From Amycolatopsis lexingtonensis (GTDB lineage Bacteria; Actinomycetota; Actinomycetes; Mycobacteriales; Pseudonocardiaceae), in contig NZ_JADBEG010000001.1 in NCBI RefSeq assembly GCF_014873755.1, positions 5,067,501 through 5,131,500 of the forward strand: a stretch of 64,000 nt of DNA, given 5' to 3'. Shown here piece after piece: positions 44,473 to 47,207 of this stretch. Every line of letters begins with the position of its first letter. The stretch's first letter is position 1. The notes beneath the pieces were generated by a model. It saw nothing but the letters and a program-made list of their open reading frames with translations, was not told the origin of the DNA and did no database searches. A program made the position numbers and the translations under genes.

Positions 44473-45723
44473 ATGAGCAACATCGACGTCGTGATCACCG
44501 GTCTCGGCGCCACCACACCGCTCGGCGGGGACGTCACGTCCACCTGGGACGGTCTGCTGGCCGGGCGGAGCGGGATCCGGGCGATCGAGGCCGACTGGGT
44601 CGAGGAGCTGCAGCTGCCCGTGAAGATCGGCGGTCAGCTGGCCGTCGATCCGTCGGAGGTCCTCCCGCGGGTGCAGGCCCGCCGGCTCGACCGCTGCGAG
44701 CAGGTCGCGCTGATCGCCGCCCGCCAGGCGTGGGCCGACGCCGGGTACACCGAGCCGACCGACGAGCACACCGACGTCGACCCCGACCGCCTCGGCGTGT
44801 CGATCGGCACCGGGGTCGGCGGGCCGGTCACCCTGCTCACCCAGAACGACCTGTTGCACCAGCAGGGTCTCCGCAAGGTGTCGCCGCTGACCGTGCCGAT
44901 GCTGATGCCGAACGGCCCGGCCGCGCACGTCGGCATCGACCTGAAGGCGCGGGCCGGTGTGCATTCGCCGGCTTCGGCCTGCGCCTCGGGAGCCGAAGGC
45001 ATCGCGAGCGGGGTCGAGATGATCCGCTCCGGCCGCGCCGACGTCGTGGTCGCCGGTGGTGCCGAAGCGTGCATCCACCCGATCACGCTGGCCGGGTTCG
45101 CCCAGGCCCGCACGGTGTCCACGCGCAACGACGACCCGGGCGCGGCTTCGCGGCCGTTCGACGCCAACCGGGACGGCTTCGTCCTCGGCGAGGGCGCCGG
45201 CGTGGTCATCCTGGAGCGCGCGGACCTGGCGAAGGCCCGCGGGGCGCGCGTCTACGCGACGATCGCCGGGCACGGCATCACCTCGGACGCCTACCACATC
45301 ACCGGCAACCACCCCGAGGGCATCGGCCAGATCGCCGCCATGCGCGCGGCGATGAAGATGGCCGGCGTCACCGCGGCGGACGTCGGGCACGTGAACGCCC
45401 ACGCGACGTCCACTGTGGTCGGTGACATCGGCGAGGCGGCGGCGATCCGCAACGCGGTCGGGGAACACCCGGTCGTGACGGCGCCGAAGGGCGCGCTCGG
45501 CCACCTCGTCGGCGGCGCCGGCGCGGTCGAGGGGATCATCACGATCCTGTCGCTCTACCACGGCATCGTGCCGGCCACCATGAACCTGACCGACCTGGAC
45601 CCGCGGGTGCAGCTGGACGTCGTTTCGGGTGAGCCGCGCAAGGTCGAGCTGACCGCGGCGATCAGCAACTCGTTCGGCTTCGGCGGTCACAACACCGCTC
45701 TGCTGTTCACCCCCGCGGCCTGA
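44473..45723 (+). CDS. fabF: Beta-ketoacyl-ACP synthase II
   Basis: A 416-residue elongating condensing enzyme. The catalytic cysteine is in SPASACASGAEGIASGVEMI, the two histidines in VNAHATSTVVGDIGEA and PKGALGHLVGGAGAVE, and GFGGHN ends the thiolase fold. It begins at ATG 44473 after GAGGAG, 29 bases downstream of acpP. It resembles KasA/FabF. It is the last FAS II gene here: downstream, the terminator stem has been split by an IS3-family element, so any operon extension is interrupted. Confidence 0.96.
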   Translation: MSNIDVVITGLGATTPLGGDVTSTWDGLLAGRSGIRAIEADWVEELQLPVKIGGQLAVDPSEVLPRVQARRLDRCEQVALIAARQAWADAGYTEPTDEHTDVDPDRLGVSIGTGVGGPVTLLTQNDLLHQQGLRKVSPLTVPMLMPNGPAAHVGIDLKARAGVHSPASACASGAEGIASGVEMIRSGRADVVVAGGAEACIHPITLAGFAQARTVSTRNDDPGAASRPFDANRDGFVLGEGAGVVILERADLAKARGARVYATIAGHGITSDAYHITGNHPEGIGQIAAMRAAMKMAGVTAADVGHVNAHATSTVVGDIGEAAAIRNAVGEHPVVTAPKGALGHLVGGAGAVEGIITILSLYHGIVPATMNLTDLDPRVQLDVVSGEPRKVELTAAISNSFGFGGHNTALLFTPAA

Positions 45724-45732
45724 CGGACGCTC

Positions 45733-45750
45733 AAAAAAGGGGCCCGGCTT
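45733..45750 (+). terminator. Left half of the fabF terminator, split by the insertion sequence
   Basis: The left arm AAAAAAGGGGCCCGGC lies at 45733-45748. Its partner GCCGGGCCCCTTTTTT lies at 47190-47205, on the other side of the IS. Removing the IS and one copy of the CTT duplication gives a perfect 16-bp stem closed by a TTCG tetraloop and ending in six Ts, a textbook bidirectional intrinsic terminator. Confidence 0.9.
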
Positions 45751-45810
45751 TGAACCGCTCCCCGGAAGTTGGACTGGGAATCCAGTTCCGACTTTCCGGG
45801 GAGCGGTTTG

Positions 45811-46296
45811 GTGTATCCAGGAAGTTCGTTGTCTGAGCAGCAGCGGGAGTCCGCTGTTGCGTTGTTCGAGGCCGGGTATGGCGCGAAGGTGGTCGCGACC
45901 CGGTTGGGCGTGTCGCCGATGGCGGTGCGACGCTTGCGTGATCGTTGGAGGTTGCGGAGCGCGGGAGCGCTGATGAGGGAGCCGGGTAAGCGGTCGTTCA
46001 CCTTCGAGTTCAAGCGTGAGGTCGTGCGCCGGTTCGTCGATGGTGAGGCGTCGGCGATGGAGCTGGCGCGTGAGCATGATCTGTCGTCGCCGAAGCTGCT
46101 GGAAAACTGGGTCAGGGTGTACCGGCGTGAGGGCGAGGACGCGTTGCGGCCCAAGCCGAAAGGCCGGCCGGGCAAGCCGGTTGACCCAGCCGGGCTCAGC
46201 GAGCTGGATCGCCTGCGGCAGGAGAACCTGGAGTTGTCGGCGAAGGTGGCGTTGCTGGAAAAATTGCGGGCCTTGAAGGAGCAGGGGCGAGGGTGA
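45811..46296 (+). CDS. IS3-family transposase OrfA
   Basis: A 161-residue DNA-binding subunit with two helix-turn-helix modules: LFEAGYGAKVVATRLGVSPM, then AVRRLRDRW, and FKREVVRRFVDGEASAMELA, then REHDLSSPKLLENWV. A leucine-zipper coiled coil follows (LDRLRQENLELSAKVALLEK). Two HTH domains in OrfA are typical of the IS150 group. I start at GTG 45811 after GGGGAG; a longer frame reaches into the left inverted repeat. Its stop overlaps the orfB start (GTGA at 46293-46296). Confidence 0.92.
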   Translation: MYPGSSLSEQQRESAVALFEAGYGAKVVATRLGVSPMAVRRLRDRWRLRSAGALMREPGKRSFTFEFKREVVRRFVDGEASAMELAREHDLSSPKLLENWVRVYRREGEDALRPKPKGRPGKPVDPAGLSELDRLRQENLELSAKVALLEKLRALKEQGRG

Positions 46297-47147
46297 AAAC
46301 CCAGGTCATCGCCACCCTCAAGGCCGAGTATCCGCTGGCGGTGCTGCTGGCGGCCGCCGGGCTGGCACGCTCGACGTTCTTCTACCACCAGGCCCGGCTG
46401 ACCCGGCCCGACCCGCAGGTCGAGCTGAAGGCGGCGGTCACCGAGCAGTTCGAGGCCGCCCGCGGCCGCTACGGGCATCGGCGTGTGCACGCGATGCTGC
46501 GCCGCGGGGGCTGGCGGGTAGCCAAGAAGACGGTGTTGAAGCTGATGAACATGCTGGGCCTGTTCTGCCAGGTCCGGCGGCCGCGCCGCTATCGGTCCTG
46601 GCTCGGGCAGATCGGCACGGTCGCGGCCAACGTGCTGAATCGCCAGTTCACCGCGGCGGCTCCGGACACGAAATGGGTCACCGACGTGACCGAGTTCCGT
46701 ATCGGCGACCGCAAGGTCTACCTGTCCCCGGTGATCGACTTGTTCGACCGATCCGTGATCGCCTACAGCCATGGCCCGTCCCCGAGTTTGGAACTGACGA
46801 ACTCGTCGCTGCGCGCGGCGATCGCGACCCTCGACGGCGCCGCCAGGCCGTTGGTGCACTCCGACCAGGGGTTCCAGTACCAGCACGTCTCCTGGCGGAG
46901 GTTGATCGAGGACGCGGGCCTGGCCCAGTCGATGTCCCGGCGAGCGAACTGCCTGGACAACTCCATGGCCGAGAACTTCTTCGGTCATTTGAAGGAAGAA
47001 CTGTTCCACCACAACAGCTTCGACACCGTCGAGGAGTTCACCGCCGAGCTGGACGAGTACATCGACTGGTACAACACGATCCGCATCTCGACCACGCTTG
47101 AAGGCCTGAGCCCGGCCGAATACCGAGCCCAGGCCCTCAAGCCCTAG
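46293..47147 (+). CDS. IS3-family transposase OrfB (rve/DDE integrase domain)
   Basis: A 284-residue catalytic subunit. The DDE residues are visible: first D in KWVTDVTEFRIGDRKVY, second D in PLVHSDQGFQYQHVSWR, and E in NSMAENFFGHLKEELF. The N-terminal part has the HTH_21-like RYGHRRVHAMLRRGGW. It lies in the -1 frame relative to orfA. The -1 frame is open from an A5 run at 46259-46263 (GAAAAATTG) onward, so an OrfAB fusion by -1 frameshifting is possible, as in other IS3 elements. Confidence 0.94.
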   Translation: MKTQVIATLKAEYPLAVLLAAAGLARSTFFYHQARLTRPDPQVELKAAVTEQFEAARGRYGHRRVHAMLRRGGWRVAKKTVLKLMNMLGLFCQVRRPRRYRSWLGQIGTVAANVLNRQFTAAAPDTKWVTDVTEFRIGDRKVYLSPVIDLFDRSVIAYSHGPSPSLELTNSSLRAAIATLDGAARPLVHSDQGFQYQHVSWRRLIEDAGLAQSMSRRANCLDNSMAENFFGHLKEELFHHNSFDTVEEFTAELDEYIDWYNTIRISTTLEGLSPAEYRAQALKP

Positions 47148-47207
47148 CTTTACCTAGCCAGTCCAACTTCCAGGGGTCAGTTCACTTCGGCCGGGCCCCT
47201 TTTTTCG

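Follow-up and report, generated by a model that had tools for sequence, protein, structure and literature searches.

The stretch of DNA that we analysed (the window; 64,000 nucleotides of the Amycolatopsis lexingtonensis genome) contains an IS3-family element of 1,434 bp lying between a fabF-like gene and a convergently transcribed neighbour (Table 1). The original prediction gave 45733-47205 as its span; this comprises the element proper, at 45751-47184, and the two terminator arms. The insertion is bracketed by a CTT target duplication, with copies at 45748-45750 and 47185-47187. The stop codon of the fabF-like gene ends 9 bp ahead of the left terminator arm, and the 3' end of the convergent gene is 2 bp from the right one. 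OrfB scored 302 bits against the NCBIfam IS3 transposase (cut-off 160) and has an rve-type DDE domain of the form DD(35)E, the 35-residue spacing having been counted by hand in the translation. OrfA, with its helix-turn-helix, is encoded upstream and, going by the coordinates, overlaps orfB at 46293-46296 in the -1 frame, a frame and overlap compatible with a programmed -1 frameshift that would give OrfAB. The ends are TG...CA terminal inverted repeats, with target duplications of 3-5 bp. From its end sequences and domain order, the element may belong to the IS150 subgroup of IS3.

Table 1. Features at the fabF site, in window coordinates. L045 and L046 are element-free counterparts of this site in relatives.
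Feature	Position	Strand	Basis
fabF-like gene	44473..45723	+	ORF; name from earlier sequence-only reading
Left half of split terminator (AAAAAAGGGGCCCGGC + TT); final 3 bases are the CTT duplication	45733..45750	.	Unbroken hairpin in L045, L046
Left terminal inverted repeat (IRL)	45751..45777	+	
Left-end inward-facing RNA hairpin (IRL + inverted copy of IRL)	45752..45809	+	Predicted fold, covariation
orfA, helix-turn-helix transposase subunit (GTG start inferred)	45811..46296	+	Pfam HTH_28, HTH_Tnp_1
orfB, DDE integrase-type transposase subunit	46293..47147	+	Pfam HTH_21, rve, rve_2; NCBIfam IS3 transposase
Right-end inward-facing (antisense) hairpin within orfB end	47096..47142	-	21-bp stem, 5-nt loop, predicted fold
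Right terminal inverted repeat (IRR)	47158..47184	+	
Second CTT copy + right half of split terminator (CGGCCGGGCCCCTTTTTT)	47185..47205	.	
Convergent neighbour gene, 197 aa	47208..47801	-	ORF; same element-free junction in L045, L046

When the flanks were joined and one CTT removed, the result was AAAAAAGGGGCCCGGC-TTCG-GCCGGGCCCCTTTTTT, a perfect 16-bp stem with a TTCG loop (gapless inverted-repeat score 16; dyad 1.5 nt off the duplication centre). This confirmed the earlier claim that the element sits in the fabF terminator and that rejoining the flanks rebuilds the stem. One strand is cut at the dyad, between TT and CG, and the other three bases off, just within the stem, which makes the earlier wording of a position at the loop-stem boundary a fair one. 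As the outer six pairs of the stem are A-T, the hairpin could serve both directions, and the element splits a terminator common to fabF and the convergent gene.

Using the last ~424 bases of the fabF-like gene, we found matches in 39 of the 40 genomes searched, its own included. In two relatives with fabF ends 98-99% identical to that of this genome, G047 and G069, the site (L045, L046) is empty and the hairpin intact, as had been anticipated for element-free strains: it is letter-identical in G047 and differs in G069 only in having A5/T5. A hairpin just past fabF was also seen by eye in many other relatives, often of unrelated sequence. Across L047-L067 the sequence of the post-fabF hairpin is very different between species of the genus, and several share a palindrome (AGTACGTGAAGGCCCCCTTC...), as if the terminators past fabF were exchanged by repeats.

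The host genome (10.74 Mb, a single contig) gave nine matches in an rve search, six of which are full copies of this element. All six are bracketed by inverted-repeat arms, with scores of 16, 15, 19, 11, 17 and 12 and target duplications of 3, 4, 3, 4, 3 and 5 bp. The dyad lies within 1.5 nt of the duplication centre in five of the six; at L003 it is 7 nt away and the cut falls within the stem top. For four of the genome's five further sites (all except L003), we looked for empty counterparts in relatives. One of the four is present as an empty hairpin in 4/4 relatives and another has homologous hairpins there, and for the remaining two the relatives carry unrelated sequence at that place.

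For a wider survey of insertion sites in Actinomycetota, loci were drawn from the best 80 of 207 in a genome-collection scan, together with further copies from a search of the genus. The 103 loci handled comprised 74 with resolved ends and 29 in which no pair of ends was found; 8 of the 74 were dropped for a flank shorter than 40 nt and 13 for having no duplication of at least 3 bp, and 53 were kept. At one locus, L077, the sequence includes N and the right end could be placed at either of two positions, which share a flank. RNA folding of the rejoined sites was tried as a test and rejected: 51 of 53 sites formed at least 14 spanning pairs, yet so did 589 of 1,231 controls. Since RNA folding separates poorly in high-GC DNA, we took the gapless inverted-repeat score as the main measure, a hit being a score of at least 9 with the dyad no more than 12 nt from the duplication centre.

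By this measure, at a threshold picked after the survey result had been seen, 45 of the 53 duplication-verified copies were hits versus 24 of 2,005 random positions in the same flanks; as some genomes contribute several copies (six here, six in Nocardiopsis metallicus), the 53 are not all independent hosts. At thresholds of 6, 7, 8, 10 and 12, the sites passing numbered 47, 46, 45, 41 and 36 of 53, against 301, 120, 40, 15 and 8 of the random positions. The stagger was 3-4 bp, and once 5. Among the 45 positives, the distance from dyad to duplication centre was at most 1.5 nt in 25 and at most 3 nt in 32; since it was greater in the other 13, the tip of the hairpin is a preference and not a rule. 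The suggestion that other copies should sit in terminator loops or hairpins was thus upheld, in 6/6 cases within this genome and in 45/53 overall.

Eight of the 53 sites fell below the score. Five of these (L080, L093, L120, L135 and L141) have long-loop or bulged hairpins by eye, and three (L102, L104 and L124) have no hairpin look by the same inspection; L143 passes the score with a palindrome that stands beside the insertion, not around it. Among the loci dropped for lack of a duplication, hairpin arms can be seen on either side of L085, L113 and L156 but not of L106. The L106 copy, from Nocardiopsis metallicus, has neither a target duplication nor a visible hairpin and is possibly a recombination product between copies. 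At L119 (positions 1-57), where the contig ends, the left flank matches the loop side of another copy's left-end hairpin, with one difference from L079 in the overlap, and this copy has apparently landed in the hairpin of another such element.

Structure, not sequence, is what the sites have in common, since only 159 of 2,756 chimeras reached the score when left and right arms were swapped between sites; 104 of these 159 derive from two left flanks that each hold a whole palindrome. It is nonetheless conceivable that a dimeric OrfA reads the duplex palindrome, or a loose GC-rich half-site, much as an operator is read and without cruciform extrusion. The helix-turn-helix domains of OrfA would suit such a reading, as would the richness of the arm positions in G and C (up to 0.43 bit each), and the excerpted text of PMC1525189 suggests it for REP-targeting transposases. 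However, none of the 26 columns examined around the insertion exceeds that value and arms of different sites seldom pair, so there is little sequence to read; the loops of passing sites, moreover, range from 0 to 10 nt. We therefore hold duplex reading to be somewhat unlikely.

In one genome, G048, three copies (L154, L155 and L157) lie in a single repeated family of long hairpins (GTGAGGGGAACCCTGAGGGACTC...), and the flanks of L156, L158, L166 and L167 are similar to this family. The dyad of the three scored G048 copies is 8 nt off the duplication centre, the centre itself being at the small internal palindromes CCCTGAGGG/CCCTCAGGG.

We looked at how far the preference reaches among relatives of the element. 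From 40 listed plasmid hits, 12 were examined and ends were resolved in ten, nine from Pseudomonadota (~46-49% OrfB identity) and one from Corynebacterium. Seven of the ten scored at least 9, versus 3 of 566 controls, and all seven are from Pseudomonadota (7/9). One relative, L226, has no exact duplication and is below the score, yet terminator arms are present; L230 has a 7-bp stem; and L221 (ISEcB1), the one copy examined from a plasmid with 12 listed match places, is not in a hairpin. In G268, an element of 41% identity has one of two copies scoring 15 and the other 7, with a bulged hairpin by eye, and for a second element of 43% identity arms bracket only 1/5 copies by eye. An IS3 element in G174 (~30% identity) shows no preference among its six copies, of which one, L217, has ends not cleanly set: one of the six scores 9, with the palindrome on one side only. 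Hairpin targeting is thus found in a wide, though limited, section of the IS3 family. The relatives from Arthrobacter and Pseudarthrobacter (L109, L099, L081, L084 and L086) are ~1.9-2.3 kb long, with extra DNA between orfB and the right end that includes candidate passenger ORFs of 89 aa, membrane-like (L109:3390-3659), and of 221 aa (L099:3412-4077).

Gene context, taken from a simple coding-bias gene caller, could be placed for 43 of the 53 sites: 26 are convergent, 14 have one facing gene 3' end and 3 have none. A gene 3' end therefore faces the insertion at 40 of 43 sites, and 51 of the 66 facing 3' ends are no more than 50 nt from it. The excerpted text of PMC9208149 reports, from a large survey, that the convergent arrangement is over-represented for the whole IS3 family, among others. 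Such low-cost places are what would be expected if insertion were near-random and copies survived only in harmless intergenic gene ends, where terminators are common. In a stricter control, however, which took positions lying 10-60 nt beyond the stop codons called in the window, 130 of 1,127 (neighbouring positions not being independent) reached the score that 45 of 53 insertions reached. Survival alone also leaves the placement of the dyad unexplained, and the distant G174 element lacks the preference, which together render survival in safe places a very improbable explanation. The excerpt of PMC6060812 describes the inverted repeats adjoining E. coli stop codons as largely intrinsic terminators, which would make terminators the natural prey of an element that seeks such structures.

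Since terminators are the ends of transcripts, strands capable of forming hairpins may be exposed there, and single-stranded hairpins might be targeted at replication forks or within R-loops that trail RNA polymerase. Against this, duplications of 3-4 bp imply staggered cuts in both strands, and among the 14 sites that have only one facing 3' end, the element points each way equally often (7 and 7). Targeting of single strands is, in our judgement, unlikely.

The element also carries predicted hairpins of its own. At the left end, the inverted repeat is followed directly by an inverted copy of itself, giving a predicted fold of -48.6 kcal/mol (z -8.2) that covers the start region of orfA and whose 3' arm holds GGGGAG 7 nt ahead of the GTG start. 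Across 52 relatives, 92.3% of the cells of the outer 15 pairs are paired. Eight pairs change on both sides, with 60 double-changed cells versus 15.2 in shuffles, figures that are inflated by relatedness, and the sense fold is more stable than the antisense in 46 of the 52. The left hairpin is interrupted in L221 and L228, and among the left ends from Pseudomonadota, L220 has no clear hairpin; nor does it have one at the right end.

At the right end of the element in the window, the predicted hairpin is more stable on the antisense strand (-43.1 versus -28.6 kcal/mol for sense), and 1 of 300 synonymous reshuffles folds as well. As this hairpin lies within a coding region, it could be a mere by-product of a conserved protein motif (GLSPxxYR) and GC-rich codons. 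Of 32 elements tried, three had no motif in frame, which left 29 for comparison. The motif is indeed conserved, and in L109, L231 and L220 (3/29) the right end does not go beyond reshuffles. In 26 of the 29, however, when protein and codon usage were held fixed, no more than 8 of 300 reshuffles matched the antisense fold, and the antisense strand was the more stable of the two in 25 of 29 elements. The comparison also took in seven elements from beyond the main set: three are without the motif, and of the four that could be tested, L173, L211 and L213 are near zero and L206, which itself sits in a hairpin, gives 9/300. An origin as a by-product is accordingly quite improbable. The mean z was -3.3 for antisense and -2.7 for sense; since the sense strand exceeds reshuffles too, part of the signal may be a DNA palindrome.

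Judged by these predicted folds, most elements examined have, at both ends, a conserved hairpin that faces inward and is usually the more stable on whichever RNA strand transcription from that side would produce. A simple terminator scan covering the window and four relatives gave totals near the shuffled expectation. It found both inward hairpins, with T-rich tails, in L227, the left and not the right hairpin in L222 and, in part, L223, and neither end hairpin in the window or L226; the tails of the end hairpins are T-poor in this genome.

These data demonstrate how the element is placed in the hairpin, that unoccupied sites exist in relatives, that the preference holds across many copies and hosts, and that the targets have no sequence in common. 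Hairpin-guided target choice, as put forward in the original prediction, is strongly supported by the intact terminators in relatives and the hairpin sites of other copies. Our preferred reading, to which we give a probability of roughly 80%, is that the element represents an IS3 clade that chooses targets by structure, mostly terminator-like hairpins at gene ends, with its own end hairpins as substitutes. The transposase would direct insertion to the apex of an inverted repeat or close to it, which for the most part means a gene-end hairpin resembling an intrinsic terminator. Recognition of the inverted-repeat tip is the most likely basis for this choice, judging from the sites, and an extruded cruciform is the simplest idea: the transposase complex would capture the extruded cruciform or loop, rather than the duplex palindrome, as the circular intermediate integrates.

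The end hairpins, for their part, would block translation of the transposase from read-through RNA and would act as substitute 3' ends or terminators for both host genes whose terminator has been split. With both a translation block and substitute terminators in place, such insertions would cost the host little. With a two-way terminator split, transcription from either neighbour would reach the element, so that a pair of hairpins is plausible both as insulation and in place of the lost 3' ends. The split had earlier been taken to predict that transcripts from the fabF side would run on into the transposase genes and that the opposite side would give rise to antisense RNA. Two features of the element would oppose this, namely the sense hairpin covering the start region of orfA and the antisense hairpin within the last part of orfB; we infer that a substitute hairpin for each side argues against simple read-through, and we would expect little of it. 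A stronger version would be a self-insulating swap of terminators: an element specialised in splitting two-way terminators would itself carry a pair of inward-facing ones, the second lying antisense within the last part of a transposase gene, such that both neighbours keep a 3' hairpin and the element is silent to outside transcription. We offer this version tentatively, at a little below even odds.

As intrinsic terminators are structural features found throughout bacterial genomes, a shape-finding IS clade in Actinomycetota and Pseudomonadota could persist cheaply and make terminators a source of genome change. The clade also offers a tangible way to ask whether DNA cruciforms are recognised by transposases in vivo, and the paired inward hairpins suggest a principle of design open to testing, in which the terminator that is broken is also replaced.

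In IS10 and IS50, a hairpin keeps transposase translation low. The comparisons that follow draw on excerpts of the papers cited. The 5'-UTR of ISPpu9 is described as forming a hairpin over the transposase ribosome-binding site (PMC8450116), as the left end of the present element appears to do. For a second, antisense inward-facing hairpin at the other end, we found no earlier description among the open-licence papers listed, a scope outside which the main IS reviews lie. Nor did the open-licence matches listed include an earlier description of IS3-family elements targeting intrinsic terminators, which does not by itself establish absence from print.

The closest parallels differ in the target or in the chemistry. 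IS1397 and ISKpn1, likewise of the IS3 family, insert into the extragenic REP/PU palindromes of enterobacteria (PMC1525189). As described there, their target is one repeated sequence family, whereas here the stems vary by site and are mostly at gene ends; the arm-swapping result shows no single repeated palindrome family as the target, although the G048 copies do share one repeated hairpin. In the case of ISPsy8, an IS3-family element of Pseudomonas syringae, every one of its five copies sits on the axis of symmetry of a predicted hairpin and has a 3-bp duplication (PMC1525189). It is always found, according to the same excerpt, at the same REP sequence and position, in contrast to the present element, which has no target consensus. 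Group IIC introns are also mobile elements found at Rho-independent terminator stem-loops or attC sites (PMC7923331); these are RNA-based, inserted beside or into the stem-loop, and depend on unrelated machinery. The staphylococcal IS1272/TnSha1, of the IS1182 family, targets hairpins without primary-sequence specificity, as the present clade does, and several of its target hairpins were confirmed as terminators by RNA-seq (PMC4923244). It differs, as described there, in having a transposase of another family and in inserting bluntly, which removes part of the stem and creates no target duplication. The present clade, by contrast, leaves the stem intact and duplicates 3-4 bp; at the fabF site, the whole stem is rebuilt and the duplication is 3 bp. 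The use of REP palindromes by IS3 elements, and of hairpins irrespective of sequence by IS1272 in another family, were thus known; the present element joins the chemistry of the IS3 family to hairpin targeting at gene ends that does not depend on sequence, and adds the paired inward hairpins.
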